Virus record (IMG/VR): IMGVR_UViG_3300037140_000055
Span: 1 to 20,464 of that record
Length of the DNA stretch: 20,464 nt
DNA from: a virus
Reading direction: 5' to 3' (one strand)
Shown here one piece after another: positions 1 to 17,581 of the stretch (the stretch's first letter is position 1; each line of letters starts with the position of its first letter). Made by a program: the position numbers and the translations under genes. Under the pieces are notes generated by a model. That model was not told the DNA's origin. It saw nothing but the letters and a program-made list of their open reading frames with translations, and did no database searches.

Positions 1-174
1 TCGCCTCCGATTGATTGGGGGTATCTAAAGACCATGTTTCCGTCGTCTGTTCGCGCCGAAAGGTAGAACGGCGATGAATAAGGTCCATTTCGGTGGATCG
101 CGCAGAGTGCTCTGCGTCCTGTAGAGGGAGAGCCGGGTTCGTGTCGTCCATTGGGCGTCAACCGGATAAGCACG
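1..174. mobile_element. MITE copy 1, right-hand part (left end outside window)
   Basis: Bases 1-174 are identical to 2356-2529, the right-hand 174 bases of the complete 242-bp element at 2288-2529. Identity stops exactly after base 174, the same boundary as the right end of the complete copy. It ends in the right terminal inverted repeat (149-174). Inside it is a small hairpin, CGCAGAG-TG-CTCTGCG at 101-116. No coding frame is convincing. If the boundary is right, the target duplication of this copy should be GGTTATAA (175-182), repeated upstream of the window. Confidence 0.8.
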
Positions 175-1189: not shown

Positions 1190-1444
1190 ATGGCAAAAGA
1201 TGCACGCGGACACGGTAGCGAAGGCGGTCGCGGCGGCGTAAGTCGGCCGGTCGGATCAGGTTTGCAATTCGGCGTTGCGTCAAAATTCAAATCAAAGGGC
1301 GGCGCGGGCATGAAGTCGGATCGAGATCACACCTCCGATGCGGCGCGCACCGTTTCCGATCTGCGCTCGCGCATGGCGACCACTGGCGCAGGCCACAAAA
1401 CCGGACTCATGCAGGGTATCAAGAATTTTCTCGGAGGCAGGTGA
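1190..1444 (+). CDS. GHGS-family small protein 1, 84 aa
   Basis: It begins MAKDARGHGSEGGRGG, the N-terminal KDAxGHGS module shared with the proteins at 1444, 1904, 2850, 5261 and 5877 and with the disrupted gene at 2235-2853. The rest is Gly-, Ser- and Lys-rich and polar, ending in a short hydrophobic stretch near GIKNFLGGR. I see no catalytic motif or membrane segment. ATG 1190 is chosen over ATG 1184 because AGGAG (1179-1183) lies six bases ahead of it but touches the earlier ATG. The stop overlaps the next start (TGATG, 1442-1446), so the two genes are translationally coupled. The function is unknown. Confidence 0.75.
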   Translation: MAKDARGHGSEGGRGGVSRPVGSGLQFGVASKFKSKGGAGMKSDRDHTSDAARTVSDLRSRMATTGAGHKTGLMQGIKNFLGGR

Positions 1445-1815
1445 TGGCAAAGGATGCAAAAGGTCACGGTTCGGAAGGTCGCAGTGGCGGTCAAAAGCAA
1501 AGCTGGGATGCGAAGCGCGGAAGCTATGCCAAAGGATTTGCAGGGCCTACGCCGGATGGCGGTCATGGAGTATCTGGTTCACAGATAAAGCAATTCATGG
1601 CTGCTAGGCAAGCCGCAGTTACCGCCCCGGATTTAGGTGCCCCATCTGATCCGGCCGCGCATCAAACTGGCGTAGAAGCCGCGCGCAACACGCCGCGCGA
1701 GTCGCTTCGCGGTAGCATCAACAGCAATCCAATCGATGCCTCGGGTGAAGGCGGCGAAGGCCAGCCTACCGCACGCAATCCGCACGGCATTCATATGGGC
1801 TACACGAAGGCGTGA
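1444..1815 (+). CDS. GHGS-family small protein 2, 123 aa
   Basis: It starts MAKDAKGHGSEGRSGG, nearly the same as the preceding protein, and GGAGG at 1434-1438 supports ATG 1444. Residues around 80 carry the second family module, AAHQTG. The last 22 residues (starting GEGGEGQPTARNPHG) are identical to the end of the protein at 1904-2185, because the DNA at 1746-1840 is duplicated at 2116-2210. Composition is polar and low in aromatics, suggesting a largely disordered protein. A Rho-independent terminator follows at 1823-1852, so 1190-1815 is a two-gene unit. The function is not recognised. Confidence 0.75.
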   Translation: MAKDAKGHGSEGRSGGQKQSWDAKRGSYAKGFAGPTPDGGHGVSGSQIKQFMAARQAAVTAPDLGAPSDPAAHQTGVEAARNTPRESLRGSINSNPIDASGEGGEGQPTARNPHGIHMGYTKA

Positions 1816-1840
1816 TTAGACAAGGCGCGCAAATGCGCCT
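1746..1840 (+). repeat. 95-bp direct repeat, copy A
   Basis: This copy is identical to 2116-2210 (offset 370). It covers the last 23 codons of the gene at 1444, its stop and the hairpin arms of the terminator, ending just before the T tract. Confidence 0.95.
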
Positions 1841-1852
1841 AATCTTTTTTCT
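1823..1852 (+). terminator. Rho-independent terminator
   Basis: The stem AGGCGC (1823-1828) / GCGCCT (1835-1840) has a six-base loop and is followed by AATCTTTTTTCT. It ends the unit of the genes at 1190 and 1444. The duplicated copy at 2193-2210 keeps the stem but has lost the T tract. Confidence 0.8.
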
Positions 1853-1903
1853 AACAACGAAAGCGAAAACACCTCCACAACAAAGCGGCATCGGAGTAAA
1901 GTC

Positions 1904-2185
1904 ATGGCGAAGGACAAAGGCGGACACGGTTCAGAAAGTCGCGGCGGCAGCGCACTCACCGCGTCTGTCTCTCGCGGTACTCCGATTGCAGGTATTCCAG
2001 CGTCCGGTGGCCAGCCGGTCGCATCCAACGAGCACGCGGCGGCAACGCTCGCGAGCGGCCCGAAGTCGGCACCGGTCGCGACGCACGACATGATGGGGCG
2101 CTCTCAGGAGTCGATTGAAGGCGGCGAAGGCCAGCCTACCGCACGCAATCCGCACGGCATTCATATGGGCTACACGAAGGCGTGA
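1904..2185 (+). CDS. GHGS-family small protein 3, 93 aa
   Basis: The modules in order are MAKDKGGHGSESRGG at the N-terminus, then GGQPVASNEHAAATLASGPK followed by SAPVATHDMMGR (about residues 34-66), then the 22-residue tail copied from the protein at 1444. The middle block recurs in the proteins at 4293 and 6655 and in shorter form at 5261 and 5446. GGAG about eight bases upstream supports the start. The hairpin after the stop lacks its T tract, so transcription may run on into the disrupted gene downstream. No enzymatic motif is seen. The gene appears to be a chimera whose 3' end was acquired by the 95-bp duplication. Confidence 0.75.
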   Translation: MAKDKGGHGSESRGGSALTASVSRGTPIAGIPASGGQPVASNEHAAATLASGPKSAPVATHDMMGRSQESIEGGEGQPTARNPHGIHMGYTKA

Positions 2186-2210
2186 TTAGACAAGGCGCGC
2201 AAATGCGCCT
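2116..2210 (+). repeat. 95-bp direct repeat, copy B
   Basis: This is the second copy of 1746-1840. It supplies the C-terminal 23 codons of the gene at 1904 and a hairpin without a T tract. The bases just after it (2211 on) read as the 5'-truncated part of the next gene, so this duplication probably also removed that gene's start. Confidence 0.95.
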
Positions 2211-2234
2211 TCCAGCGTCGAGGCCGTGCGTGAT

Positions 2235-2853
2235 ATGCCGCGCGCCGCGCTAGCTTGGCGGGATCGTCAAAACAGTATCCAACAAAGCATGCTTATCCGG
2301 TTGACGCCCAATGCTTGACAGCCACCTGGAATTTTGCTTTTCTCCGTTCCGACAATCGCCTCCGATTGATTGGGGGTATCTAAAGACCATGTTTCCGTCG
2401 TCTGTTCGCGCCGAAAGGTAGAACGGCGATGAATAAGGTCCATTTCGGTGGATCGCGCAGAGTGCTCTGCGTCCTGTAGAGGGAGAGCCGGGTTCGTGTC
2501 GTCCATTGGGCGTCAACCGGATAAGCACGCAACAAAGGACGCTAGGGAAAGCTGCGTCGTCCCGAGAGGTTCGCAGCAAAGCCGATCTCACTGGACGCGC
2601 GAGCTATTGGGGGCAATTGAAGGACGCAGGCGGTCACGGTAGCGAAGCACACGCGGCGCATCAGGCGGGCACGCTTGACGCGCTTCCTCGGATAATTCGG
2701 AATGCCGACGACGATACCTTGCTTGACATATCCCGCTGGGAGCGGCAAACATTGCAGGGTGCTATGTTAGCGCATGGTAAAACTCAGTGGGACGAGAACC
2801 AGGACAGTGGGAGCCTGGACCCGAACCGCCCAGCAAAGGCAGCGAGCAAATGA
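2235..2853 (+). pseudogene. GHGS-family gene split by the MITE
   Basis: If 2288-2529 and one copy of CAACAAAG are removed, the flanks join in a single open frame. The left side ends RDRQNSIQQ, and the right side continues QRTLGKAASS and on through GQLKDAGGHGSEAHAAHQAG to the stop at 2853. The right part carries both family modules (KDAxGHGS and AHQxG) and the segment LDISRWERQTLQGAMLAHGK. As it stands, the 3' part is open from TTG 2506, inside the MITE. A second in-frame TTG at 2617 would give a KDAGGHGS start like the paralogs, so a 78-115 aa product may still be made. The ATG at 2235 is only the first available start, and the true 5' end may have been lost to the 95-bp duplication. The stop overlaps the next start (ATGA at 2850). 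Confidence 0.7.
2288..2529. mobile_element. Complete MITE, 242 bp, with 26-bp TIRs and 8-bp target duplication
   Basis: The ends are inverted repeats: 2288-2313 matches the reverse complement of 2504-2529 at 25 of 26 positions, with 24 contiguous (core CATTGGGCGTCAACCGGATA at 2504-2523). The element is flanked by the perfect direct repeat CAACAAAG at 2280-2287 and 2530-2537. Its right 174 bases recur exactly at 1-174. No transposase frame fits inside 242 bp, so it must be mobilised in trans by an element with matching ends. Eight-base duplications occur in several IS families (for example ISL3, IS1595, IS256 and IS66), and I cannot assign one from the ends alone. Confidence 0.88.
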
Positions 2854-3323
2854 GCAAAGATGCAAAAGGTCACGGCAGCAACGCACGCGGCGCACATTCT
2901 AGTGGAGTCGATCAGGTCGGCAAGCCTGCGCCCCGGGTCAACGACGCGGCGATGAAAGTCATCAGTAGCACGAAGCCCGGCGAAGGCTTCTCTATCACAC
3001 CGGGCGGCAGTCAACCGACAGACGGTCACATGGTTGCCCTGCCAAGCCGTACACAGGATGTCGATCCCGCTGCGTTATCCGGGCCCGGCGGTCGTGCCAT
3101 CATTGACGCGTTCACCGCGAAGAACGCGGACGTTTTCAGTGGCAACCCGAATATGCATGTCGGTGGCTGGCTCGATCCCGACACGCACAAGCTTTCACTC
3201 GATCCGTCCGAGAATATCAAGGATCGCAAGACAGCGATTGCCTCTGGCATAGCGCGCAATCAAAAAGAGATTTGGGATGTGAAGAATAAGACCGGGATAA
3301 AGACAGGTGGCAGTGGTACATGA
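2850..3323 (+). CDS. GHGS leader fused to a phage GGWxDP-type conserved domain, 157 aa
   Basis: The N-terminus is MSKDAKGHGSNARG. From about residue 45 the protein changes to a compact domain with EGFSITPGGSQPTDGHMVAL, then NADVFSGNPNMHVGGWLDPD, LSLDPSENIKDRKTA and a final NQKEIWDVKN with IKTGG. I recall this pattern (GFS...P.GYMVA, GGW.DP.T, LD.S....DR..A...G..NQ..I.D, TGG) from uncharacterised proteins and C-terminal domains in actinobacterial phages and polymorphic proteins. Its biochemical role is unknown to me. ATG 2850 is chosen because it overlaps the previous stop (ATGA) and aligns with the paralogous starts. An in-frame upstream start at 2787 is less likely. Confidence 0.7.
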   Translation: MSKDAKGHGSNARGAHSSGVDQVGKPAPRVNDAAMKVISSTKPGEGFSITPGGSQPTDGHMVALPSRTQDVDPAALSGPGGRAIIDAFTAKNADVFSGNPNMHVGGWLDPDTHKLSLDPSENIKDRKTAIASGIARNQKEIWDVKNKTGIKTGGSGT

Positions 3324-3468
3324 CGCGGACTGCCGGCTGCATTTCACGGACGCGCCCCAACGGTTAAACATGAAGCGGCGCATCACGACGGAAAGAAACT
3401 AAAACAACTCAGCGCGTAACCTGTCTTGGAAAACGCCGGTTGAAAATGAACAAGATAAGGCGCAGCAT

Positions 3469-3643
3469 GGTACATACCGACGCGGAATACGAAAAGCAGG
3501 AGCGGATCATCCGTTGTCAAAATTGACCGAAGTCCAGCGACGGCAGATTAGAACGGCTACCGGGATTACAGCGCGAGATAGCAGCGGAATTCGGGATCAC
3601 TCAGCCACTTGTTTCGATGATAAAGGCAGGGCTATACACATGA
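3469..3643 (+). pseudogene. Frameshifted small helix-turn-helix protein
   Basis: Three frames together read as one protein. ATG 3469 gives MVHTDAEYEKQERIIRCQ, which stops. The next frame gives KLTEVQRRQIRTATG. The third gives REIAAEFGITQPLVSMIKAG then LYT and a stop at 3641-3643. That last part is a typical helix-turn-helix of the 'IAxEFGVSxxxVSxIKxG' kind found in small DNA-binding phage proteins, but its frame has no start codon. One extra A in the AAAA at 3522-3525 region and one fewer G in the GGG near 3560 would join all three. The stop overlaps ATG 3640 (ATGA), as expected for an intact upstream neighbour. It is either a sequencing indel artefact or a decayed regulator gene. Confidence 0.6.
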
Positions 3644-3981
3644 AGAAAGAATTGAAGCCGGGCGAAGTCGGCGAACACCATATCCCGATCTACGACCACA
3701 AAGGCCACATGCGGGGCAGAGTCGGGCCGCGCGCTTCAAGCGTGACGGTCGCTCGCTTCATTGGCCTGCACGGCGCGAAGCTCGGGACCAAAGACGGCCG
3801 CACCGCATGGATCGGTCCGAAGCCGCCACCGCCGAAATTGCCGACTGCCGTCGCCGTCGCCGAGCAACAGGCTAAGGCGAAACCGCAGAATAACACGCTC
3901 GAAATCTCGCTCAAGGCCGATAAGGGCAGCGTGACAAAGACGCCGAGTGCGCCAAAGACGAGCGCCCGGCCGAAGAGGTAG
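3640..3981 (+). CDS. Hypothetical protein with basic Pro-rich tail, 113 aa
   Basis: The first 65 residues look folded: MKKELKPGEVGEHHIPIYDH, then GHMRGRVGPRASSVTVARFI and GLHGAKLGTKDGRTAWIGPK. From about residue 66 there is a Pro/Ala/Lys-rich disordered tail ending KTSARPKR. An in-frame TTG at 3514 would extend it to 155 aa. That extension belongs to the frameshifted helix-turn-helix gene, and ATG 3640 overlaps that gene's stop, so I take 3640. I do not recognise the fold. Overall charge is basic, which would suit nucleic-acid or head contact, but nothing proves it. usg follows seven bases later. Confidence 0.65.
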   Translation: MKKELKPGEVGEHHIPIYDHKGHMRGRVGPRASSVTVARFIGLHGAKLGTKDGRTAWIGPKPPPPKLPTAVAVAEQQAKAKPQNNTLEISLKADKGSVTKTPSAPKTSARPKR

Positions 3982-3987
3982 AGGCTA

Positions 3988-4233
3988 ATGAAGGATGGCT
4001 ACGGACTGACTACGGCCAGCATTCTCTATCGTCGGCCTGACCATCTTTGGTTGCTTCAAAGCTATATCTGGCAAGAGTATGATTTCTGTCCAGTGTTTCC
4101 TCAGTTACACAAGTTCCTGGATTTTTGGTTGGCCAAGCTCGACGGTCCATTACACTCGGTCACGGTCGCGCATGAGCGCTTGATAAAACCTACCGAAATC
4201 CGCGCCATAAGTAGCGAGTTTCGGCTTCACTAA
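3988..4233 (+). CDS. usg: Usg-like family protein, 81 aa
   Basis: It is full length for the family. GYGLTTASILYRRPDHLWLL, QSYIWQEYDFCPVFPQL, HKFLDFWLAKLDGPLHSVTV, AHERLIKPTEIRA and a terminal FRLH match, nearly word for word, what I remember of the Usg family (Pfam Usg-like). In alphaproteobacteria these are small cytosolic proteins of undefined function, historically linked by name only to a phosphoribosylanthranilate isomerase subunit. No catalytic residues are established. A ribosome binding site (AGAGG) precedes ATG 3988. It ends two bases before a promoter-like motif. Presence among phage genes suggests a captured host gene and points to an alphaproteobacterial host. Confidence 0.9.
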   Translation: MKDGYGLTTASILYRRPDHLWLLQSYIWQEYDFCPVFPQLHKFLDFWLAKLDGPLHSVTVAHERLIKPTEIRAISSEFRLH

Positions 4234-4234
4234 C

Positions 4235-4269
4235 ACCGGGTTGCTTTCATAATGCAATCGATGTTATCA
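4235..4269 (+). promoter_or_regulatory. Promoter-like motif ACCGGGTTGC-N19-TTATCA
   Basis: ACCGGG (4235-4240) runs straight into TTGCTT (4241-4246), then 17 bases, then TTATCA(T) at 4264-4270. A start near 4276 gives a short leader with GGGAGAG ahead of ATG 4293. It begins right behind the usg stop. Confidence 0.6.
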
Positions 4270-4292
4270 TGTAAAAATCCTGGGAGAGTGCT

Positions 4293-4481
4293 ATGATCAA
4301 AGACAAATTCGATTGCGATTGCTCGGGCGGCCAGCCGGTCGAGAACGATCAGCATGCGGCGACCGTGCTCGCGCAGGGCGGCCCGAAATCAAAGCGCGTC
4401 CCGGTCAAGTGGGGCATGAAGGATCAAGATAGCGGGGCCGAAGGGCTCGCGCGCAAAGGCGGTTCCGACCCCTACGCGTAA
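4293..4481 (+). CDS. Small modular-family protein, 62 aa
   Basis: It starts MIKDKFDCDCSGG, with a Cys-x-Cys where the paralogs have GHGS. It then carries the shared block GGQPVENDQHAATVLAQGGP followed by KSKRVPVKWGMKDQ (about residues 12-46), closest to the middle of the protein at 1904. The WGMKDQ ending recurs in variant form in the neighbours at 4563 (TMKDQ, WGMK) and 6218 (YGLKDE). GGGAGAG at 4282-4288 supports the start. It is probably a single-gene unit, with promoter-like motifs on both sides (4235-4269 and 4493-4527). The function is unknown. Confidence 0.7.
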   Translation: MIKDKFDCDCSGGQPVENDQHAATVLAQGGPKSKRVPVKWGMKDQDSGAEGLARKGGSDPYA

Positions 4482-4492
4482 GCTCGAAATTT

Positions 4493-4527
4493 ACCGGGTT
4501 GCTTTGGTTAACGGACGCGGCTAAGGT
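4493..4527 (+). promoter_or_regulatory. Promoter-like motif ACCGGGTTGC-N19-TAAGGT
   Basis: ACCGGGTTGC (4493-4502) has TTGCTT at 4499-4504, a 17-base spacer and TAAGGT at 4522-4527. The bases ahead of it (AAATTT) also match those ahead of the copy at 824. A start near 4534 would fall inside the left arm of the hairpin at 4529-4554. Confidence 0.55.
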
Positions 4528-4528
4528 G

Positions 4529-4554
4529 CCTCCGAAGAATTTCATTCTCGGAGG
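4529..4554 (+). promoter_or_regulatory. Strong hairpin over the ribosome binding site of the gene at 4563
   Basis: CCTCCGA (4529-4535) pairs with TCGGAGG (4548-4554) and GAAT (4537-4540) with ATTC (4544-4547). This gives eleven pairs with one bulged A and a three-base loop. The right arm is the Shine-Dalgarno GGAGG, eight bases before ATG 4563. Read-through transcripts would have it buried. Transcripts starting inside the left arm would not. Confidence 0.65.
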
Positions 4555-4562
4555 ATATTCCC

Positions 4563-4997
4563 ATGGCAGTCAAGGGCAGTGGATTAGGCGCGGGTCCTGA
4601 TGGATCGCGGGTTGATCAAACGAAGTTCGACGCCCGGAGCGGCGCTGCCAAGCGCACGCAAACCAAATTTCCGATCAAGGATACCATGAAGGATCAGACC
4701 AGCCTTTCGTATGCTGGTCCAGCCAATCCTGGTACGGGTCCCGATGCCGATCCGGCCGACGTTATGTCGCCGGAGCCGAAGGGTAAGACTTTGCATCGTC
4801 AGTCGCAAATTCTCTTCAATCGTTGGGGTATGAAGGGTGCTGCGCCCGACATGACCGACTCAGCCAAGACAGGCAAGACGCTCGACGCCAATATCGGTGG
4901 CAAGGTCCTGGGCGAAGCGATCCTTTCAGGTTCGAGCAATCTCCCCGCGAAGGGAACTGCACTTACCGATAGCGGCAAAGCGCCGTCCCGGAGCTAA
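4563..4997 (+). CDS. Hypothetical modular-family protein, 144 aa
   Basis: This is a polar, Gly/Pro/Asp-rich protein with two similar internal segments, KFPIKDTMKDQTSLSYAGP (about 37-55) and ILFNRWGMKGAAPDMTDSAK (about 82-102). Both resemble the VKWGMKDQ end of the protein at 4293. No membrane segment, signal or catalytic motif is visible, and much of it is likely disordered. GGAGG at 4550-4554 gives a firm start but is sequestered in a hairpin. The next gene starts seven bases after the stop, so 4563 to about 6643 is likely one unit. I do not know the function. Confidence 0.7.
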   Translation: MAVKGSGLGAGPDGSRVDQTKFDARSGAAKRTQTKFPIKDTMKDQTSLSYAGPANPGTGPDADPADVMSPEPKGKTLHRQSQILFNRWGMKGAAPDMTDSAKTGKTLDANIGGKVLGEAILSGSSNLPAKGTALTDSGKAPSRS

Positions 4998-5003
4998 CGT
5001 GCT

Positions 5004-5261
5004 ATGCGCGCCTTCCATGGTGCGCGTGAAAATACGCTCGGTGCGGAGACTAATCTCGCGCCGGGCTTCAATCTTGTCTCACCGAAAGTCGCTGCGGCTA
5101 CAATGCACAACGATCTTGCGGATGACGTGAAACAAATTGCCGACGGAACGAAGAACGTTCCTATTCATCCGGCGCAAGTCGCTACCGAAGGATCAGATAA
5201 ACAGGGATACGGCGGCGACGCTGCGCAACACGATCCGACGGGGATTGGACGAGGCATGTGA
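5004..5261 (+). CDS. Hypothetical protein, 85 aa
   Basis: The first half reads like a folded segment (LGAETNLAPGFNLVSPKVAA then ATMHNDLADDVKQIADG). The second half is Gly/Asp-rich and includes NVPIHPAQVATEGSDKQGY. The VPxHP string recurs in the protein at 6218 (DVPVHPGLAPG). The start is ATG 5004 with a weak GGAG ten bases upstream. The stop overlaps the next start (TGATG, 5259-5263), arguing for coupled translation. No family is recognised. Confidence 0.65.
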   Translation: MRAFHGARENTLGAETNLAPGFNLVSPKVAAATMHNDLADDVKQIADGTKNVPIHPAQVATEGSDKQGYGGDAAQHDPTGIGRGM

Positions 5262-5446
5262 TGAAAGACGCAAGAGGGCACGGCAGCAACGGCAACGGTG
5301 GTGGAATTGCGCATCAAACCGGCGTCTACCAAATTGATTCGATGCTGACGCCGCTCGGTAATCGCACGCTGCAACATCCACGCGACAATGTTCAAAAAGG
5401 TGGGAACGCAGCCGGGCAATACTTGGCGCAAGGCGGAGATGATTGA
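5261..5446 (+). CDS. GHGS-family small protein 5, 61 aa
   Basis: It starts MKDARGHGSNGNGGG and is followed directly by the second family module GIAHQTGVYQIDSMLTPLG. It ends with a shortened form of the third block, NAAGQYLAQGG. The three modules are thus present in minimal form within 61 residues, which makes it a useful reference for defining the family. GAGG at 5251-5254 supports ATG 5261, while an in-frame GTG at 5258 is less likely. The stop overlaps the next start (TGATG at 5444). The function is unknown. Confidence 0.7.
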   Translation: MKDARGHGSNGNGGGIAHQTGVYQIDSMLTPLGNRTLQHPRDNVQKGGNAAGQYLAQGGDD

Positions 5447-5625
5447 TGGCCAACGTGGCAAGTGGCTCGACGACGGTCGCGGACGTGATCGTTCCGAAGG
5501 GAAATTTCGGACCATACCCCTCCAAGCGCCGAAAGCGGCGCGGGGGCTATGGCCAACAGATCACTGATGAAAGTGCTGCACTTACATTGGGGCAGGGGCA
5601 TCCGAAAAGTAGGGCATCAAAATGA
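5446..5625 (+). CDS. Small modular-family protein, 59 aa
   Basis: The N-terminus is MANVASGSTTVADVIVPKGN, followed by a very basic patch PSKRRKRRGG. The C-terminus, GYGQQITDESAALTLGQGHP then KSRASK, is a variant of the shared HAAxxLAxGxxKS block. ATG 5446 overlaps the preceding stop, and GGAG lies about eight bases upstream. The stop overlaps the next start (ATGA, 5622-5625). No fold is recognised. Confidence 0.65.
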   Translation: MANVASGSTTVADVIVPKGNFGPYPSKRRKRRGGYGQQITDESAALTLGQGHPKSRASK

Positions 5626-5741
5626 CAGCGCGCGCACCCCGTAAAAAAGTGATTAAAGTGAAACCGACGAAACCGACGAAGCCGGTGACGAAGCCGACGA
5701 AGTTGGCGAAGTTTATGAAGTGGTGGCTGACATGGGCTTGA
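5622..5741 (+). CDS. Tiny basic PTKP-repeat protein, 39 aa
   Basis: ATG 5622 overlaps the previous stop (ATGA). The product begins MTARAPRKKVIKVK and continues with four PTK(P) repeats (PTKPTKPVTKPTK) before an amphipathic end, LAKFMKWWLTWA. About a third of its residues are Lys or Arg, and the C-terminal Trp cluster could touch a membrane. Its frame overlaps the next gene by ten bases. Similar tiny Pro/Lys proteins exist in many genomes without a known role, so a repeat-driven chance frame cannot be excluded. Confidence 0.5.
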   Translation: MTARAPRKKVIKVKPTKPTKPVTKPTKLAKFMKWWLTWA

Positions 5742-5875
5742 TCCTTTTGATTATCGTACTTGTTCTGTTGTTCGGCGGCGGTGGATTTTACGCTGGCGGC
5801 GGTCGCGGTCTTGGTGGGGGTCTCGGTCTTATTCTGATCATCCTCTTGATCGTGTTTGTGCTCGGCGGGATTTGA
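5732..5875 (+). CDS. DUF3309-like small membrane protein, 47 aa
   Basis: There are two hydrophobic segments, MGLILLIIVLVLLFG (1-15) and GLILIILLIVFVLGG (about 31-46). Between them lies a Gly-rich loop with a Tyr and an Arg (GGGFYAGGGRGLGGG). The hydrophobic-GGG loop-hydrophobic plan and length fit DUF3309-like proteins, common in Rhizobiales genomes and of unknown function. It acts in the inner membrane. Two short membrane helices also suit a small holin, but no lysis enzyme is visible nearby. The start ATG 5732 has only a weak GGTGG ahead, and coupling to the overlapping gene at 5622 is likely. Confidence 0.65.
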   Translation: MGLILLIIVLVLLFGGGGFYAGGGRGLGGGLGLILIILLIVFVLGGI

Positions 5876-5876
5876 A

Positions 5877-6221
5877 ATGAAAGACGCGCAAGGTCACGGT
5901 AGCAATTCTAAAGGCGGCCAAGCGGCTGTCACATCGTGGCGGGCGGCACATCAAGAAGGAATTCGGCAATCGGTCCCCAGCTTGATTAAAGCGTTCGTGA
6001 AGAACGAAAGCGGCGAAGGCCGCTCTCTCGGGGAGCTTAAGAGCTACGATCCGGAGCCCACATCACGGCTTATCGGTGAAGGCATCGGCGCGGCGGCTTC
6101 GGGCGAACACGCAGGATTAGCAGAAGTCGGAAAAACGCTTATTCATCTGGCGCATTTCCTCGGGGTCTTGGGTGCGCTCGCATTAGTCGATCTGATGGCT
6201 CATTTGGTGGGGATAGCATGA
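5877..6221 (+). CDS. GHGS-family protein with hydrophobic C-terminus, 114 aa
   Basis: It starts MKDAQGHGSNSKGG, followed by the second module in the form WRAAHQEGIRQSVPSLIKAF. The last 35 residues are hydrophobic (LIHLAHFLGVLGALALVDLM), probably one membrane helix or a buried helical hairpin, unlike its paralogs. ATG 5877 lies one base after the previous stop. An upstream in-frame ATG at 5856 would overlap the membrane protein gene and break the family alignment, so I reject it. The stop overlaps the next start (ATGA, 6218). The function is unknown. Confidence 0.7.
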   Translation: MKDAQGHGSNSKGGQAAVTSWRAAHQEGIRQSVPSLIKAFVKNESGEGRSLGELKSYDPEPTSRLIGEGIGAAASGEHAGLAEVGKTLIHLAHFLGVLGALALVDLMAHLVGIA

Positions 6222-6643
6222 CACGTGGAACCGGATATTCTGGACCCAACTCGACGAAGCCAACTCAGCCGCAAGAGGACGATCTCGCCAATGAGGGCGG
6301 CACCGCTCCAGGCGGCACTGTAGCCTTCATGGGAGCGGCCTCGCAATGGTCAAGCTCGAACGCGGCGAACCGGAACAACTTTCCAGACCCGATCAAATCG
6401 GCGAAGATGATGCACTACGGACTCAAGGATGAAGCGCCCGCCGAAAAGGGTGATGTCCCGGTCCACCCAGGTCTCGCGCCCGGCTTGTTTCGAACCGCAC
6501 GCGACGCCAACTATGCCGCGCCGGACGGCGAGACAAACGTGAACGCCGCTGAAACTGGCGGTCATCCACTGTCGGCCAGCGGCAAGTCTCGCGGTGAGTC
6601 GCCCGAGATCGAAAATCAAGAAAGAGGTATGTACAAACCTTAA
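6218..6643 (+). CDS. Hypothetical protein, 141 aa
   Basis: This is a polar protein rich in Gly, Ala, Asn and Pro, with no membrane segment. Family-like pieces are IKSAKMMHYGLKDEAPAEKG (compare WGMKDQ at 4293) and DVPVHPGLAPG (compare VPIHPAQVA at 5004). The C-terminal end is rich in charged residues (GESPEIENQERGMYKP). GGGGA at 6209-6213 and the ATGA overlap support ATG 6218. It likely ends the coupled run that began at 4563. No known domain is recognised. Confidence 0.65.
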   Translation: MTRGTGYSGPNSTKPTQPQEDDLANEGGTAPGGTVAFMGAASQWSSSNAANRNNFPDPIKSAKMMHYGLKDEAPAEKGDVPVHPGLAPGLFRTARDANYAAPDGETNVNAAETGGHPLSASGKSRGESPEIENQERGMYKP

Positions 6644-6654
6644 AGGAGGCTAAG

Positions 6655-6879
6655 ATGTGGTCTGACGCAGCACGAGAGGCGGCTATAGCCGCGCGAAAGG
6701 GTGGTGGAATGGCAACGGAGCCACAGACTGCCGCAGAATTTGGTCAGCAGGTGTCTGATAAAAACGCCGCTGGCGCGCTCGCGCAAGGTGGCGCGAAGTC
6801 GGTTCCGGTCGCTGTTCATTCCGGCGCAACCGGGCGCAATCCCGCAACGGAAACGGGTTCGAGCGAATACCCGTGGTAA
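6655..6879 (+). CDS. Small modular-family protein, 74 aa
   Basis: It has a near-consensus ribosome binding site, AAAGGAGG (6642-6649), six bases ahead of ATG 6655. After a short helical start (MWSDAAREAAIAARKGGG), residues 27-60 hold the shared block as FGQQVSDKNAAGALAQGGAK then SVPVAVHSGATGR. That makes it the closest relative of the middle of the protein at 1904, though it lacks the GHGS leader. This shows the block can exist without the leader. The function is unknown. Confidence 0.75.
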   Translation: MWSDAAREAAIAARKGGGMATEPQTAAEFGQQVSDKNAAGALAQGGAKSVPVAVHSGATGRNPATETGSSEYPW

Positions 6880-7832: not shown

Positions 7833-8597
7833 ATGGCTGCGAATAAACCGAGTTGGCCGAAGTGCGGATGCATCGAGCGATGCGAACGTCTCAAGTGTCA
7901 GATGGCTGGAGGTCGAGACGCCTACAAACGCGCCGCCACGGCAGATAACAATCCGAAGCAAGGTATCGCCACTCGGAAATACTCCCCTCAATACCTCAAA
8001 AGTATCATCGCTGCCGCAGCAGATGTTCCGGCGGAGGCCGTCATCTGTAGGAAAGTGGGCATATCCCGTACCATGCTCCGGTATTGCCTAAAACGCAGCC
8101 AAGAGGGGCGCGCGGGGGATATGTTTGATGTTGAAGTCAAAGATGGCCACGCCGAACGCTTCCACATTCTATATGAGGACGCGATTGACGCGGGCTACGA
8201 CAGGCATCAACAACATGCTAACGATCTCGCTCTTGGCGCGGCACGCGAAGTTCTCGAACATCACGGTCGAGTCGTATATAAATCTGATCCGGTTCTTCTA
8301 TCCTTTGGGCTGAAAGGAGCAGACGCATATCTGTTGGATAAGGATGGAAGCCCTGTTCCTGAAACACGGCCTGTTGGTGGGGCAGTGCAAGCTGAGATGA
8401 CACGCTGGATTTTAACGCATGTTCGTCCGAAGCAGTACGGCACCAAGGTACAGGTCGAGCACGAGCATAAGGGAGGAATTGTTGTCGTCAGCGCGCCACT
8501 GACTCCTGACCAACTCGAAAAAACTTTCGGTGGCGGCCAGAAAATAGTCGATGTGGAGTTTGAAGCGCTGCCGCCACCCCCGGAGAAGAAGTCATGA
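7833..8597 (+). CDS. terS: Terminase small subunit, 254 aa
   Basis: It recognises the phage genome for packaging and hands it to the large subunit. It sits just ahead of terL with an ATGA overlap (8594-8597), the standard arrangement. A helix-turn-helix-like segment lies at about 67-87 (EAVICRKVGISRTMLRYCLK), followed by a helical oligomerisation region. The ending RWILTHVRPKQYGTKVQVEH (191-210) matches the 'RxPxxYGxxVxVEH' motif common near the C-terminus of such small subunits. Odd points are four Cys in the first 22 residues (C11, C13, C17, C22), a possible metal site, and an acidic/Pro-rich tail. An AAAGGAG site supports ATG 7833. Confidence 0.75.
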   Translation: MAANKPSWPKCGCIERCERLKCQMAGGRDAYKRAATADNNPKQGIATRKYSPQYLKSIIAAAADVPAEAVICRKVGISRTMLRYCLKRSQEGRAGDMFDVEVKDGHAERFHILYEDAIDAGYDRHQQHANDLALGAAREVLEHHGRVVYKSDPVLLSFGLKGADAYLLDKDGSPVPETRPVGGAVQAEMTRWILTHVRPKQYGTKVQVEHEHKGGIVVVSAPLTPDQLEKTFGGGQKIVDVEFEALPPPPEKKS

Positions 8598-11011
8598 GTT
8601 TCCCGACAGTCTATCGATGGCGGTTCAATGGCACTGAATACGTTCCAATTATTCTCGACGCATTCGGGAACGAGATGGAGTGTATTTGGGCCCCGCAAGC
8701 CGGGTCGCAAGCTGCGTTTCTATCGGCTACCGAGCTTGAAGTCATATTTGTCGGGACGCGCGGTGGATGCGGCAAGTCGGATGCTTTGCTTTTTTCATAT
8801 TTACAGCATGTCGGTCGCGGATGGGGCGGAGCCTGGAAAGGTATCATTCTGCGGCAGACGCATCCGATGTTGCGGGAATTCATTGACCGGACGAAGCGTT
8901 GGATACCCCGGATTTGGCCCAGCTCCGAATACAACGAAGTAAAATATCGTTGGACGTTTCCTAGCGGGGAGACACTCTATCTATCGCATCTCTCCGAACC
9001 TGTTGATTTCCATGAGTACCAAGGCCAGGAGTTCACATTCATTGGATTTGAAGAACTTGTGACGTGGCCAAATTTGGATTGCTACAAGCTCATGTTCTCT
9101 TGCTTGCGATCTCCGGTCCCTGGTATTCCTTTGATGATACGTTCGACGACCAACCCCTACGGACCCTCTCACAATCTCATCAAGAGCCGGTTCAATTTGC
9201 CAATCCCAAATGCGAAGTCCATGGCAAATCCAGACGGCGCGGTCATGGGGCCGCTCATCCCAGGCGAGGTCGATGAGAACGGTATTCAAGAACCGGATCG
9301 CCGTGTATTCCATGGACACATCCTGGAAAATAAACTCCTACTCAGGAGCAATCCAAGATATGTGGACAATCTGAAAGCCAGCGCCAAGAGCAAAGATTTG
9401 GAGCGGGCGTGGCTCGATGGTGATTGGGACATCACGGCAGGCGGCCTTCTCGATAACGTTTGGGCGAAGGCGAAGAAATTTGCTGTTCTGGAAGGGCTGT
9501 CGCCGCAAACGATCCCAGATGATTGGACAATTTTCAGAGCTTATGATCACGGGTATTCAGCACCGTTCGTTGTCCAGTGGTACGCTTTGAGCAATGGCAA
9601 CGATATTACCTTGGTAAATGGTAAGGTAAGATCGACTCGACGGGGCGATCTTTTTTTGGTCCGGGAATGGTATGGTTCGTCGGGCAAACCAAACGAAGGC
9701 ATGGAAATTCTAGCGCCCGAAATTGCCAAGGGTATTGTCGCACGCGAGATCGAGTGGGGCTGGCAACCCCCCGCCGGGGGTAAAAGCCGTGTCAAATCAG
9801 GACCGGCGGATACCGGAATTTTTGACGATGTGAATGGAGTCCACATCTCGGCGGACTTTGAAAAACCCGTTCACTTGAACAGCCGCAAATATCGAGGGAT
9901 CATATGGGAGCACGCGGATAAAGGAAAAAATTCTCGCGCGCTGGGTTGGGATCAGTTGCGGGAACGTTTGGACGCTACGGTGCCGCTTGAAGGCGTTGGT
10001 CGCGAGCGGCCGGGGCTTTTCGTTTCATCTGAATGCCACGCATGGCTGCGGACAGTCCCGGTCTTGCCGCGCGACGAAGCGCAGGTGGACGACTGTCCAA
10101 AGAATTGTGAGGACCATTGTTTTGTTGCCGGGACTATGGTGGATACAGAAGAGGGCTCTATTGCAATCGAGAAGTTACCTGTATCGGGGCGGCTACATTC
10201 ATTAGACCGTATTGAGCCATACTGTAACCCCCGACTAATTCAGCGAGAAGCACACGTTGTGCGATTGACGTTTAATGATGGACGGACTGTGGAATGCACA
10301 CCGGATCATAAATTCCTTGTAGATTTAGATGAATGGTGGTACGCAAAAGACTTACTCGGAAAGGAAGTCCTGTGCAGCCGATCATTATCAGCCAAACGAT
10401 CCAGGAATTTGAAGGAGTCCGCTACTACCTCTGCGGCAAATACTTTCAGCACAAAGGCAGTCGCCTCCATATTCGCGTGTGGGAGTATCACAAGGGACCT
10501 ATACCAGCGGGCCACCACATTCACCACAAACATACTCGCGCCCAAAATGGACCAAATGATCTGGAATGCCTCACCGCTGTTGAGCATGGCAGGGATCGGC
10601 ATGGGGCGGAGTCTGGAGAAAGAGGGCGGCAATATCTCCCACTTGCTCAGGCCGCTGCCGCAGCTTGGCACAGAACCGACGAGGGCCGTCAATGGCACTC
10701 GGAGCATTCTAAAAAGTTCATGCGGGAGCGTGTTGCAGATTGCGTATCGCTTAATTGCCAGCATTGCGGAGCGACCTTTTCCACGCCTCGATACGCCAGT
10801 GGTTTTGCAAAATTTTGCCACCCGAATTGTAAAGCGCGTGCGTTGCGTCGGCGTCGAAAACTTGCAAGAGCGACGTGACGTATATTGCTTGACTGTTCCG
10901 ACCAATCACACATTTTCGATTGAGGGCGGCATCCTCGTCGCGAATTGTGGGGATTGTTGCAGATATGCCTTGCGGTTCGAATATCAGCCAATGGTCAGCC
11001 GTCGAATTTGA
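8594..11011 (+). CDS. terL: Terminase large subunit precursor containing an intein, 805 aa (529 after splicing)
   Basis: This is the packaging motor ATPase and nuclease. The ATPase domain has Walker A GTRGGCGKS (54-62), Walker B FTFIGFEEL (about 147-155) and a coupling motif RSTTNPYG (183-190). The RNase-H-like nuclease has acidic residues at D318 (FRAYDHG) and D406 (ADTGIFDD). The third, D787, lies in CEDH|CGDCCRY, which is interrupted by the intein (residues 509-784). Mature exteins of 508 and 21 residues sum to 529, normal for this family. The portal follows at 11530. Splicing must occur for the nuclease to form, so packaging depends on it. Confidence 0.92.
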   Translation: MSFPTVYRWRFNGTEYVPIILDAFGNEMECIWAPQAGSQAAFLSATELEVIFVGTRGGCGKSDALLFSYLQHVGRGWGGAWKGIILRQTHPMLREFIDRTKRWIPRIWPSSEYNEVKYRWTFPSGETLYLSHLSEPVDFHEYQGQEFTFIGFEELVTWPNLDCYKLMFSCLRSPVPGIPLMIRSTTNPYGPSHNLIKSRFNLPIPNAKSMANPDGAVMGPLIPGEVDENGIQEPDRRVFHGHILENKLLLRSNPRYVDNLKASAKSKDLERAWLDGDWDITAGGLLDNVWAKAKKFAVLEGLSPQTIPDDWTIFRAYDHGYSAPFVVQWYALSNGNDITLVNGKVRSTRRGDLFLVREWYGSSGKPNEGMEILAPEIAKGIVAREIEWGWQPPAGGKSRVKSGPADTGIFDDVNGVHISADFEKPVHLNSRKYRGIIWEHADKGKNSRALGWDQLRERLDATVPLEGVGRERPGLFVSSECHAWLRTVPVLPRDEAQVDDCPKNCEDHCFVAGTMVDTEEGSIAIEKLPVSGRLHSLDRIEPYCNPRLIQREAHVVRLTFNDGRTVECTPDHKFLVDLDEWWYAKDLLGKEVLCSRSLSAKRSRNLKESATTSAANTFSTKAVASIFACGSITRDLYQRATTFTTNILAPKMDQMIWNASPLLSMAGIGMGRSLEKEGGNISHLLRPLPQLGTEPTRAVNGTRSILKSSCGSVLQIAYRLIASIAERPFPRLDTPVVLQNFATRIVKRVRCVGVENLQERRDVYCLTVPTNHTFSIEGGILVANCGDCCRYALRFEYQPMVSRRI
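10118..10945 (+). other. Intein in TerL, 276 residues
   Basis: The N-terminal block is CFVAGTMVDTEEGSIAIEKL beginning with the nucleophile C509 of the precursor. Block B has T61 and H64 (intein numbering) in GRTVECTPDHKFLV. The C-terminal block F/G reads DVYCLTVPTNHTF and GGILVAN before +1 Cys (C785). The penultimate residue is Ala rather than the usual His, as seen in some active inteins. Roughly intein residues 86-237 (10376-10828) have no Hint-fold features: this stretch is the shadow of an HNH endonuclease read in the -1 frame. The splicing part is thus about 125 residues, the size of a mini-intein. Confidence 0.9.
10372..10878 (+). CDS. HNH homing endonuclease nested out of frame in the intein, 168 aa
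   Basis: In the -1 frame relative to terL, the HNH module YYLCGKYFQHKGSRLHIRVW is followed by GPIPAGHHIHHKHTRAQNGP and NDLECLTAVEHGRDRH. This is the usual 'HHI...N....LE.LT..EH' core of homing nucleases. A Cys4-type zinc finger follows (CQHCGATF, then FCHPNC) with a basic tail RALRRRRKLARAT. The start is most likely GTG 10372, with AAGGAAG at 10361-10367. ATG 10333 in the same frame gives 181 aa but no ribosome site. The last 50 bases overlap the C-terminal splicing block. It would cut intein-less terL alleles and so spread the intein. Confidence 0.85.
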   Translation: MQPIIISQTIQEFEGVRYYLCGKYFQHKGSRLHIRVWEYHKGPIPAGHHIHHKHTRAQNGPNDLECLTAVEHGRDRHGAESGERGRQYLPLAQAAAAAWHRTDEGRQWHSEHSKKFMRERVADCVSLNCQHCGATFSTPRYASGFAKFCHPNCKARALRRRRKLARAT

Positions 11012-13206: not shown

Positions 13207-15972
13207 ATGCCCTTTGACGAAAGCCAGCATCCGCGTGGTGAGCACGGCCGGTGGGCAGTCAGCGCGGGCGGCACTGTCGAGCCGCTCGTCGATCCGCGCG
13301 TGCTCGATGTCGGCGGCGATCAATGGAACAAGGATACTGCGGCCCGACTCGAAAACGAGTATGAGGCAGCGCGTCCGGCACTGAACGCTCTTGTCGAGAC
13401 GGCGGCCAAAGCACCGTCGCCTTCGGATGATGCCGAAGTAAGCGCCGCAGTAAAAGCAAACACTACAGCTAATTTTCACGACTTAGAAAATAGCTTGTCC
13501 GATACTGAGTCGGCTGCGCTTATCAGCAAGTATGGCTCAATTCAAGCGGCATCCACAGCATTGTACGGTAAAGATGCGCCTGGTTTCAAAGGTACGGACG
13601 AACCCGAGGACGAGGAGAGTCCGGAGTCCTGGGATGAGATGAATAACGATCTACAAGAACAGGCAGGGGATAAATACAAAGAGTCAAACTATGAACAAGC
13701 CCTAGAAAGCGAGCAAAATAACTGGTCAGAAAATGGCGCGCCTGCGGAGGCAGCAGCCAAGGTCGCAGAAGATGACGACTGGAAAGCGGAATTCTTGACA
13801 GATTATCTCGCGCAGCGGATCGAGGACGGCGAGCCCGCCATCCCTTACACCGCACAAGAATTGCTCGACTCAATCACATTGAATTTCGATCATGACTCAG
13901 CCTCTGGCTCGGGCTATGGTTCAAAAAGTCTAGCCGAAAAATATCTGGAAGTCGGATTTGACGACAGTCAATTGCAGCACCCTCACAACAATTTCAATCC
14001 CGATCAAATGACGCTTCCTGGTATTGAAGAGGTGAAACCAGAAAGCTCGCTCACTGAGGATATGCGCAAAGACATCACCGAAGCCATCACTGACGCATTC
14101 ATAGAAAAAACAGATAAAGAGACAAGCAATATGGAGGCTCCCGATTATCTTTCGGAAAGCGCTAATGACCTGGTAGCTGAAGATTGGGACCAAATGGGCG
14201 ACAAGGATAAGTTTCAATGGGTCAAAAATAATACTGATCTCGTGGATGATGAGAAGCCGGGGAAGCCTGAACCGAAGGACGAGGGGCCACTTTTAATACC
14301 CACGACCTGGAACCCGATGCAAGACAACGATAAGGGCGCAGGAAATTACACTCGCACGCAACGAATGGCGAAATATCTCGCCAATAACCGCGCCGTTCAA
14401 GTCATGGCGCAGCGTGGCGTACAGACTCTAAATCAAAGGGGCGATCCGGTTCTCACACATGCGGCGGTGCCGGGGACTGATACCAAGTATAGTGAGGAAG
14501 CACATCCTCTTACCCCGACGCTTGAGGCTATTGAGCAATCAGATGAACGATTATGGTCCGGCTGGAAGGGAAGCTCTACCGGAGCGGAGGGGCGGCTCCT
14601 ACAGGTTGCATCGGCTGACGAGCTTGGCGGCCGACTCAGGGAAGCGATAAAAAATCCTGATATGGCGGTGGAGTATAGCGCATTTGCGAAAAGCGATATC
14701 GCAAAAACAGGTACCTTAGAGGAATTTTCAGCGGGACTAAAGGCAAGCAGCAATCCAGTCGAGATGGCAAAGGCGGCAAAATCTGATCCTGATACATCAT
14801 TCGAACAAAAACAAAAAGCTCAGGAAATTATAGAGAACCCCCCTACTTGGAAGCAGCCGCCGCTCGGCGAAAAGGTTACGTTATTCAGTGGGACTGAAAT
14901 ATCGCTGGATAGTAACCCCATGTTGCATGCTTTAGGCAGCAAATTAAAACTTCACGACGGCACGGAAATTCAGAAGCAGCCAGACGGCAAATGGAAAGCA
15001 ACAACAGGTCCACAACCGAGTACGTTGCCGACTCAGGGTAATCCGGCGAAGCTGAAAAGTGAAACCGTATCTCGATACCCCGCAGTAGGCGCGAGTGGTG
15101 CGGGCGCTCCCAGCTATCAGAGACTTCCTGAAATGAACGTCGTGCGTAACGGAGCTACTTCAACTACCACTGATCTAGGTGTCGCAAACGGTTGGGGCGG
15201 TACGGCGAACAATGCATCCAACGGTATCAGCCGGGACGAAGCTATCGAATACGCCAACATGAACTTTGCCAGCATTGGCGGCTACGAGGGTGTCAAAGCA
15301 GCGGTCCGGGCGAAATGGGAAACTACACAATACATGCTCGATAAGGCCGACACACCGATTGTCCAGGTCTATCGCGGCATGAGCTACCCGCACACGCGTT
15401 CAGAAGATGTGATACCTGCCGGAGCCGCAGGTAAAAAATTGGCTGCTGCGGATTTAGAAACTGGGGTTTCTTTTATAAAAGCGCAACCTAAAATGGAAGT
15501 CTCCACGCTTCTGGATAAATCAGGAGAGCCACAACAAAAAGCTCTCATCGCTGAATATGGAAGCCTCTACAACGCAATTGGTGCTATTCATGGTCACGAT
15601 GCCAACGCGATCAAACTACACGACGTGATCCAAAAAGTGCAGGCGGTTCCTACACCTCATGAAGCCGTATCGTATTTGAGTGGGACGGAAATGGAAGCCC
15701 TTACAAAACAGTATGGCTCTTTTGCCAAAGCGTGGGTGGAGATACATCCCGCAGAAGAAACTCCGACTCGCGGGCGCGTTGTGCTACGCGCTGAGGTACC
15801 GCGCACGGCCGTCCTGTCAGTTCCAGCCTACGGCGTAAATGTCCATAGCGAGCACGAAGTTGTTGTCACTGGCACATCCTGGCGTGGCTGGGATGCATGG
15901 TCTGACAAGGCACCGTCGTTTGAGGATGTACCAATGGGTACGAAGACGTCTCCACCAAGGGGCCGCTTATAG
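13207..15972 (+). CDS. Large head-associated protein with C-terminal ADP-ribosyltransferase-like domain, 921 aa
   Basis: The N-terminus MPFDESQHPRGEHGRWAVS is a leader of the 'FDExxHPRGxxGxF' type, shared with the protein at 18023. Residues 40-700 are mostly acidic, helical and low in recognisable motifs. From about 715 the sequence fits an ART fold: VYRGMS with R723, a strand GRVVLRAEVPRTAVLS, then SEHEVVV with an ExE pair at E882/E884. R-S-E type ARTs transfer ADP-ribose from NAD to arginines, and phages fuse such domains to head proteins for injection. Between R723 and ExE lie two copies of a helical repeat (cores YGS at 784 and 836). A third copy is at 109. No Mu F domain is evident. The catalytic call is by pattern only. 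Confidence 0.65.
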   Translation: MPFDESQHPRGEHGRWAVSAGGTVEPLVDPRVLDVGGDQWNKDTAARLENEYEAARPALNALVETAAKAPSPSDDAEVSAAVKANTTANFHDLENSLSDTESAALISKYGSIQAASTALYGKDAPGFKGTDEPEDEESPESWDEMNNDLQEQAGDKYKESNYEQALESEQNNWSENGAPAEAAAKVAEDDDWKAEFLTDYLAQRIEDGEPAIPYTAQELLDSITLNFDHDSASGSGYGSKSLAEKYLEVGFDDSQLQHPHNNFNPDQMTLPGIEEVKPESSLTEDMRKDITEAITDAFIEKTDKETSNMEAPDYLSESANDLVAEDWDQMGDKDKFQWVKNNTDLVDDEKPGKPEPKDEGPLLIPTTWNPMQDNDKGAGNYTRTQRMAKYLANNRAVQVMAQRGVQTLNQRGDPVLTHAAVPGTDTKYSEEAHPLTPTLEAIEQSDERLWSGWKGSSTGAEGRLLQVASADELGGRLREAIKNPDMAVEYSAFAKSDIAKTGTLEEFSAGLKASSNPVEMAKAAKSDPDTSFEQKQKAQEIIENPPTWKQPPLGEKVTLFSGTEISLDSNPMLHALGSKLKLHDGTEIQKQPDGKWKATTGPQPSTLPTQGNPAKLKSETVSRYPAVGASGAGAPSYQRLPEMNVVRNGATSTTTDLGVANGWGGTANNASNGISRDEAIEYANMNFASIGGYEGVKAAVRAKWETTQYMLDKADTPIVQVYRGMSYPHTRSEDVIPAGAAGKKLAAADLETGVSFIKAQPKMEVSTLLDKSGEPQQKALIAEYGSLYNAIGAIHGHDANAIKLHDVIQKVQAVPTPHEAVSYLSGTEMEALTKQYGSFAKAWVEIHPAEETPTRGRVVLRAEVPRTAVLSVPAYGVNVHSEHEVVVTGTSWRGWDAWSDKAPSFEDVPMGTKTSPPRGRL

Positions 15973-16024
15973 GGGAGATTTCTTCTGCGGACTATGTTAA
16001 GCTGCAAAAAGAGGCATACCCGGT

Positions 16025-16462
16025 ATGATCGATGTAGATTTGAATGATCATAGTGGCGGACCGCATTGGCTCACAAAAGCAGGCGGTCATGACCACGCCA
16101 AAAATATCCGCGCCAAGCACCGCGCTGCGTGGGTAGCGAAGCATCCGCGCGTGCCTAATCCCGTGCGCCCGGAGACGATGGCGAAGTTGGAAGCTGTCAG
16201 CGCCTATGCGCAGAAAGTTCACGCTGCCAAAGTCCTGGCTCGAATAACCAAAACCTGGAATACCGCGCTCGCGATCATCGATAAATCAGAGCTTGTATTG
16301 CGCGACGTGATCGAGCGCGGGCTTTTGAATACCGCCGGACTTGATCATCAGCGCTACAATGATGCGATGCGGGTCGCTGACCGACTCATGAAAAAGATCA
16401 CACGCATTCGGACCAAAGCCATCAAAGCTGCCTTCCGCCTTTTGCGGGATCAATCCTATTAA
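16025..16462 (+). CDS. Hypothetical helical protein, 145 aa
   Basis: The start is polar (MIDVDLNDHSGGPHWLTKAG), followed by long basic helices (AKLEAVSAYAQKVHAAKVLA; DRLMKKITRIRTKAIKAAFR). AGAGG (16009-16013) lies eleven bases upstream of the ATG. The stop TAA (16460-16462) falls at the expected right end of the IS200/IS605 element, so the native C-terminus may be longer and cut by the insertion. The function is not recognised. Confidence 0.6.
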   Translation: MIDVDLNDHSGGPHWLTKAGGHDHAKNIRAKHRAAWVAKHPRVPNPVRPETMAKLEAVSAYAQKVHAAKVLARITKTWNTALAIIDKSELVLRDVIERGLLNTAGLDHQRYNDAMRVADRLMKKITRIRTKAIKAAFRLLRDQSY

Positions 16463-16475
16463 CGTCTTCCCCGGT

Positions 16476-17552: not shown

Positions 17553-17581
17553 ACGCAGGAAGTATTGGTCGGTGGTCAAAA

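Follow-up and report, generated by a model that had tools for sequence, protein, structure and literature searches.

In bacteriophage T4, the internal proteins IPI–III and Alt carry a capsid targeting sequence (CTS) and are packaged and injected (PMC3012670, PMC5694885), and in phage P1 the N-terminal 30 residues of DarB suffice to target a reporter to the capsid (PMC9024508). The polyvalent proteins of Iyer et al. (2017) combine 2 to 15 domains in one polypeptide (PMC5512222). We describe a family of small proteins with a common N-terminal leader, KDxxGHGS, encoded in the complete IMG/VR virus record IMGVR_UViG_3300037140_000055 (20,464 bases; hereafter the window) and in related virus records, all of them uncultured and many of them only fragments. 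The leader was found in 235 open reading frame (ORF) rows, representing 149 distinct small proteins in 36 records; counts include near-duplicate records, except in the comparison of leader variants between genome groups, which used 133 non-redundant proteins from 23 groups. We think it probable, though well short of certain, that the leader is a short disordered N-terminal tag that loads cargo into an SPP1-type head, and that the tagged proteins are packaged and ejected.

As with the T4 CTS proteins, a short N-terminal tag is common to otherwise diverse proteins: in every one of the 235 ORF rows the motif began no more than 5 residues from the start codon, and it was never internal (loci L007–L052); 148 tails fell into 42 clusters. 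The family differs from the T4 proteins in its SPP1-type capsid, in the tag itself, in the number of tagged genes (up to 12 per record), in a second, exchangeable tag and in that no Peptidase_S78 was found in nine records; for the present family, moreover, packaging is a proposal. P1 DarB likewise has an N-terminal capsid-targeting sequence but is one large protein, whereas the tag described here heads a family of small ones. With polyvalent proteins the family shares domain types (ART-PolyVal and GNAT and, below cut-off, ParB-like and zincin-like) and a location near late genes (PMC5512222), but here every domain has a small protein and a tag to itself instead of a place in a multidomain chain. 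Encapsulin cargo peptides offer a further parallel, in that accounts of them describe a short peptide that loads different enzymes into an HK97-fold shell. Encapsulins differ in being compartments of cells that are not known to contain DNA, a portal or a scaffold. By analogy with the published descriptions, the leader may work like the capsid-targeting sequences of T4 and P1, and the tail domains resemble those of polyvalent proteins; membership in either group is not established.

All seven window genes at which a first-pass annotation had reported a KDAxGHGS leader carry one, in frame and N-terminal, and the DNA pattern KDAxGHG gave six matches on the + strand, none on the − strand and none in a reversed control. 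These genes, named by their first position and all on the + strand, lie at 1190..1444 (84 residues, MAKDARGHGSEGGRGG; KDARGHGS; its tail family occurs in six further loci), 1444..1815 (123 residues; KDAKGHGS with an AHQTGV module; 1-nt overlap with the preceding stop codon), 1904..2185 (93 residues; KDKGGHGS with the 'KS' module described below), 2617..2853 (78 residues; KDAGGHGS, AHQAGT, TTG start), 2850..3323 (157 residues; KDAKGHGS, AHSSGV and a GGWxDP domain, predicted to be folded, at about residues 31–157), 5261..5446 (61 residues; KDARGHGS, AHQTGV) and 5877..6221 (114 residues; KDAQGHGS, AHQEGI). The motif AHQ[TAE]G is thus found as reported at 1444, 2617, 5261 and 5877, with AHSSG at 2850. 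Gene 2617, previously called disrupted, has a reading frame that stays open from its TTG, which is preceded by GGGGG, and so need not be dead, although an inverted-repeat element has been inserted upstream of it. A 100-nt direct repeat, 98% identical, lies at 1741–1840 and 2111–2210 and supplies genes 1444 and 1904 with a common C-terminus, GGEGQPTARNPHGIHMGYTKA.

Modules are clearly shuffled among the array genes. Profiles retrieve the paralogs from one another, where a failure to do so would have refuted the first-pass annotation, and the observation as a whole is confirmed, with corrections to individual motifs. The KS block (GQxVxxxHAAxxLAxGGxKSxPV) was recovered by profile at 1904, 4293 and 6655, as claimed, and also at 5446, but the short form attributed to 5261 reads AGQYLAQGG and lacks KS. 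The WGMKDQ-like motif is clear only at 4293..4481 (+, 62 residues, KS module and WGMKDQ without a GHGS leader), and the matches are weak at 4563..4997 (+; TMKDQ and RWGMKG, separate) and 6218..6643 (+; HYGLKDE only). Two further + strand genes of the array carry the KS module: 6655..6879 (74 residues), which begins with a second leader, MWSDAAREAAIAARKGGG, and 5446..5625 (59 residues), a small basic protein without a GHGS leader that opens with a copy of the capsid protein's N-terminal arm (STTVADVIVPKGNFGPY ... GQQIT).

The wider collection was seeded with the DNA pattern M-x-KDAxGHG[ST], which gave 40 stretches of viral contigs, and relatives of gene 2850 supplied six more loci; leader ORFs were collected from loci L007–L052 with a looser motif. 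KD and GHGS were invariant, although the search expression permitted R, Q, E or N for K and T or A for S, and 100 of the 149 distinct proteins fall outside the seed DNA pattern and still keep both. A leader profile run over 4,277 distinct ORFs added one N-terminal form, MKDAKGRGS (L025:2505). All synonymous codons are in use across the leader, including four for glycine and six for serine. Scans of whole records placed leader sites in 36 of 36, on a single strand in each, with none of 36 positive in the reversed control. Across genome_contigs (84,980 bacterial and archaeal species) the seed pattern had 11 scattered matches, none of them in an array, and a prophage or bacterial gene family was rejected as the source on this basis. 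Four records (G010, G021, G026 and G029; loci L016, L027, L033 and L039), kept within the 36-record counts, have one leader gene each and lack the portal, tape measure and capsid proteins of the clade; they are candidates for a transferred tag or for another phage lineage.

To remove seeding bias, 68 loci were gathered by the portal protein alone. At a portal identity of at least 61% there were 39 loci, 19 of them with at least 7 kb visible upstream, and 18 of these 19 have at least two same-strand upstream leaders; the remaining close relative is L109 (portal 67%), which is described below. The leader-seeded set had already included 12 of the 19, and six of the seven unseeded ones carry leaders. 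In the unseeded records L084, L090, L091, L092, L106, L112 and L114, with some near-duplicates among them, 33 leaders occur, each immediately following the start codon. At a portal identity of 46% or less (29 loci), leader arrays were present in none of the 12 loci with 7 kb in view. Over all 68 loci no leader match was antisense and one was internal and non-N-terminal (L140). Chance or artefact is ruled out by the strand bias, the reversed controls, the genome_contigs scan and this portal-only sample. Among cultured phages, tblastn with a 30-residue leader gave no match, which is weak evidence because the query is short, and the relatives RDJL3 and 9g, which have the same head genes, show no array as judged by annotation. 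Strings such as KDAKGHG were absent from the open literature searched, a body of text that largely excludes subscription journals.

Tagged genes form co-directional arrays upstream of the terminase and portal genes, and occur again beside the tape-measure gene. Tagged neighbours make up 151 pairs: 44 overlap, by 4 nt in 39 cases and by 1 nt in five, 58 are spaced by 0–20 nt and none changes strand. Directly 3' of the window array, on the + strand, lie genes for the terminase small subunit (7833..8597; phrog_1482, E 7.6e-6), the intein-interrupted terminase large subunit (8594..11011; phrog_979, E 1.3e-29; Intein_splicing, E 9.5e-11) and the portal protein that defines the phage clade (11530..13149; phrog_145, E 9.2e-107); a portal was detected in 27 of the 36 records, with the leaders upstream of it. 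Part of a longer parent record, G003 (IMGVR_UViG_3300050119_000104; 117,459 bases), matches the window at 99.96–100% identity, and there the portal is followed by genes for a scaffold (50324–51220; phrog_206, E 2.4e-35), a major capsid protein (58442–59587; phrog_247, E 5.1e-98) and a tape measure (phrog_3547, E 5.1e-18). A tape-measure gene was detected in 12 of the 36 records, several of them near-duplicates; a tagged gene follows within 50 nt downstream in seven of the 12 (G007, G012, G022, G025, G027, G030 and G034) and within 1.1 kb in three (G003, G023 and G032). In G003, three tagged genes (68.5–69.4 kb) separate the tape measure from more late genes.

The 42 single-linkage tail clusters have representatives of 50–205 residues, one tail each, and the stricter set of 133 non-redundant proteins from 23 genome groups gave 58 clusters. 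Among 34 tail representatives compared with Pfam, those above the curated cut-off were two ART-PolyVal domains (PF18760; E 8.7e-14 and 1.5e-9), one Arr-ms (E 7.4e-7) and one GNAT (E 7.3e-8); one ParB_N and one metallopeptidase M57 (zincin-like) fell below it. Profile searches for known families with ten window proteins returned no Pfam family and two PHROG matches only (E 0.1 and 0.13). The commonest well-defined tail is the GGWxDP domain of gene 2850, which the first-pass annotation had taken for a single fusion and which ends 16 of the 149 distinct leader proteins. In the AlphaFold model of 2850, residues 1–17 have a predicted local distance difference test score (pLDDT) below 50 and the ten-residue blocks from residue 31 onwards score 84–97, so that the leader is predicted to be disordered and the tail domain to be folded from about residue 31. 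This domain aligns with residues 772–904 of the 1,807-residue internal virion protein of cyanophage SS120-1 (97.7%, E 2e-12; tblastn, 3e-4), and in a comparison with predicted domains of viral proteins it had 21 matches at E ≤ 1e-3, some in proteins of 811–1,102 residues and some standing alone in proteins of 104–139 residues. Against the PDB there was no clear match (best Foldseek E 0.42, best VIA-align Z 2.7), which does not of itself show a new fold. The predicted structure of A4, a tail family adjacent to the tape measure, had a pLDDT of 30.5 and was not used.

That the leader can be exchanged is shown by L109, which has one MRDAKGHGS gene together with four whose products begin MW[ST]DEAR-x-A, in one case with an extra residue (MAWSDEAR). 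All four tails have homologues under a GHGS leader elsewhere (E 2.7e-49, 3.7e-15, 1.1e-12 and 8.1e-9), and retention of the tail sequence while a different shared start takes the place of the first 15–18 residues is the pattern expected of an exchangeable tag. The same MW[ST]DEAR leader precedes the KS module in window gene 6655; over the whole viral collection its pattern was found in five stretches, one of which, L148, looks unrelated by eye. A KS profile found 71 ORFs, 40 of them with a leader, and a profile for AH, applied with a loose cut-off of E ≤ 1, found 54, of which 50 have one. Among 140 leader ORFs, KS is present in 40, AH in 50 and both in one (Fisher p 1.5e-8), and KS and AH look like alternative second elements. 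The KS module was also considered as a relic of the capsid N-arm, an origin set aside when the KS profile retrieved nothing in the capsid protein.

Leader variants track the genome more than the tail. Within a genome group, proteins whose tails differ agreed at leader positions 3–4 in 0.653 of cases and at position 9 in 0.456; where the tail was shared and the genome groups differed, agreement was 0.583 and 0.293. None of 500 shuffles of the genome labels reached the observed within-genome agreement. This likeness fits an adaptation of all tags within a genome to one partner.

A connection to the capsid comes from gene 5446, which starts MANVASGSTTVADVIVPKGNFGPY and continues to GQQIT, and from the capsid protein, which starts MTNVSTTIADVIVPEVFTPYTQQLT; they match from residue 1 in both (BLASTP E 2e-5). 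By eye, many synonymous differences separate the two at the DNA level, so the arm of 5446 is not a fresh copy. Similar small basic N-arm proteins occur in four genome groups (G002, G003, G005/G008 and G032), that of G032 having been found with the capsid protein as query (residues 3–34, E 9.4e-6). The capsid protein is homologous to SPP1 gp13 (PDB 4an5, E 5.6e-52; PDB 6r3a, assigned to SPP1 (PMC6813328), E 6.2e-52), with the N-arm motif DVIVPELFNPY present there. The N-terminus of the SPP1 capsid protein binds scaffold within the procapsid, and capsomeres are joined through the N-arm residues Ile10, Pro12, Phe15 and Tyr18 (PMC6813328). In the chi-like phage YSD1, the N-terminus of an auxiliary protein augments the sheet formed by the capsid N-arm and E-loop (PMC7385642), and by analogy a decoration-like place on the particle is possible for the 5446 product.

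Taken together, these data give good support to the first-pass view that the leader is an address tag and not an enzymatic domain: it is predicted to be disordered, it precedes many unrelated tails, it can be swapped for a second leader and it follows the genome more than the tail. As to purpose, capsid packaging is the best guess, judged by where the genes lie, by the domains in the tails and by the copied capsid N-arm; a binding partner of the leader, late expression, ejection and action in the host are likewise inferred. The phage would make about 5–12 small proteins late in infection that share the GHGS tag or the exchangeable MW[ST]DEAR tag and differ in unrelated tails, several of which are enzyme domains of the kind that polyvalent proteins deliver. 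The tag would bind some part of the SPP1-type head as it assembles, with the scaffold, the capsid interior or the portal as the likeliest partner, and the tagged proteins would be built into the procapsid, exit with the DNA into the next host and act there on host targets or defences. The 5446 product, with an arm whose SPP1 counterpart contacts scaffold and neighbouring capsomeres, may use another route into the particle. More tentatively, as a possibility we would not put first, the SPP1-head clade may use a loading code of at least three exchangeable addresses (GHGS, MW[ST]DEAR and the capsid N-arm copy), with KS and AH as mutually exclusive second elements, to load its heads with a dozen small effectors that change from phage to phage; in this tentative form the system would be a phage version of encapsulin loading, in which polyvalent proteins are split into individually addressed parts.

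Several observations weigh against packaging. Just four of the 34 tail representatives reached the Pfam curated cut-off, and none of the ten window proteins tested had a Pfam match at E up to 1. Over all variable leader positions the difference between agreement within a genome (0.444) and for the same tail (0.429) is small, and within-genome similarity can stem from duplication or gene conversion, without a receptor. Leader codons are biased, towards GGA at glycine and AGC/AGT at serine. Two of the 12 records with a tape measure (G004 and G013) have no tagged gene near it, and where tagged genes do lie near it, a tail-associated role would fit as well.

ART and GNAT domains are expected to work within cells, and most tagged genes sit with the terminase and portal. 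Both points speak against a leader that attaches to the tail or to the particle's exterior (tape measure, adhesin or decoration lattice), with the tagged proteins carried on tail or surface; we regard this as unlikely, even though the second group of tagged genes adjoins the tape-measure gene and the auxiliary-protein site on the YSD1 capsid sheet could also hold the 5446 N-arm copy (PMC7385642). Similarly doubtful is a tag that acts inside the infected cell, through which all tagged proteins would, during infection, share a single binding partner, be it a host protein, a phage protein or nucleic acid, and would be absent from the virion. The RGG-like and charged residues that follow GHGS would suit such a role, most tails are of unassigned function, and a common partner would likewise explain the within-genome similarity of leaders. 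Set against this are the late-gene position and strand, next to packaging and tape-measure genes, the companion protein with a capsid N-arm and the homology of a tail to an internal virion protein.

We consider it very improbable that the shared 5' end is a DNA or RNA device, either a recombination handle or a translation-initiation element, with a functionless peptide. The tight packing of the genes (44 of 151 pairs overlapping, 39 by 4 nt), the biased codons at some leader positions and the shuffled modules would agree with it, but the peptide is constant while codons vary through all four for glycine and all six for serine, the motif is always in frame and N-terminal, and the same tails occur under a wholly different leader peptide and DNA. 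The remaining alternative, a propeptide removed by a prohead protease, would resemble the T4 tags, which are N-terminal, 10–20 residues long and removed (PMC5694885), but has only a very small probability in our estimate, given that the prohead protease Peptidase_S78 was found in none of nine records in a search with positive control genomes that did not extend to T4 gp21-type and other families, and that the head modules of RDJL3 and 9g list no protease by annotation. Because no S78 protease was found in any of the nine, cleavage of the leader is unsupported, as is the proteolytic release suggested in the first-pass annotation, and we favour an uncleaved tag over a propeptide of the T4 kind.

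Other features of the window and its parent record were also noted. Two large proteins beside the portal (13207–15972 and 18023–19615) both start FDExxHPRGxxG[RK][WF], the second matching DUF7178; this start may be an N-terminal signal of a different sort. The idea that it represents a variant of the leader was set aside, the motif HPRG..G[RK][FW] being found in two window proteins only among 8,172 ORFs. Between the scaffold and capsid genes of G003 lies a gene for a 1,152-residue protein (L066:12114–15569) that matches tail-fibre and collagen-like minor-tail families. An inverted-repeat element of about 244 nt, resembling a miniature inverted-repeat transposable element (MITE), lies just upstream of gene 2617 (2288–2531), flanked by 8-bp direct repeats (CAACAAAG), and is found again at window positions 1–174 and in the G003 pieces L064, L065, L068 and L069; G003 has many copies, mostly 92–100% identical. 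A phage genome peppered with MITE-like copies is unusual. The late region of the window also holds an IS200/IS605-type element with TnpA and TnpB (16476–17992), and by eye G003 has further ORFs with TnpB-like starts at 15747–16805, 93268–94323 and 116385–117440.

Capsid-targeting tags are known from T4, giant phages and P1, and no description of them in the SPP1-type head lineage was found in the open literature searched. If the leader is a loading signal, such tags would extend to another head lineage, and every protein that bears one could be read as a virion-carried effector. A simple sequence rule would then be available for finding dozens of injected phage proteins of unassigned function, and a short portable tag for placing chosen proteins in an SPP1-type capsid.

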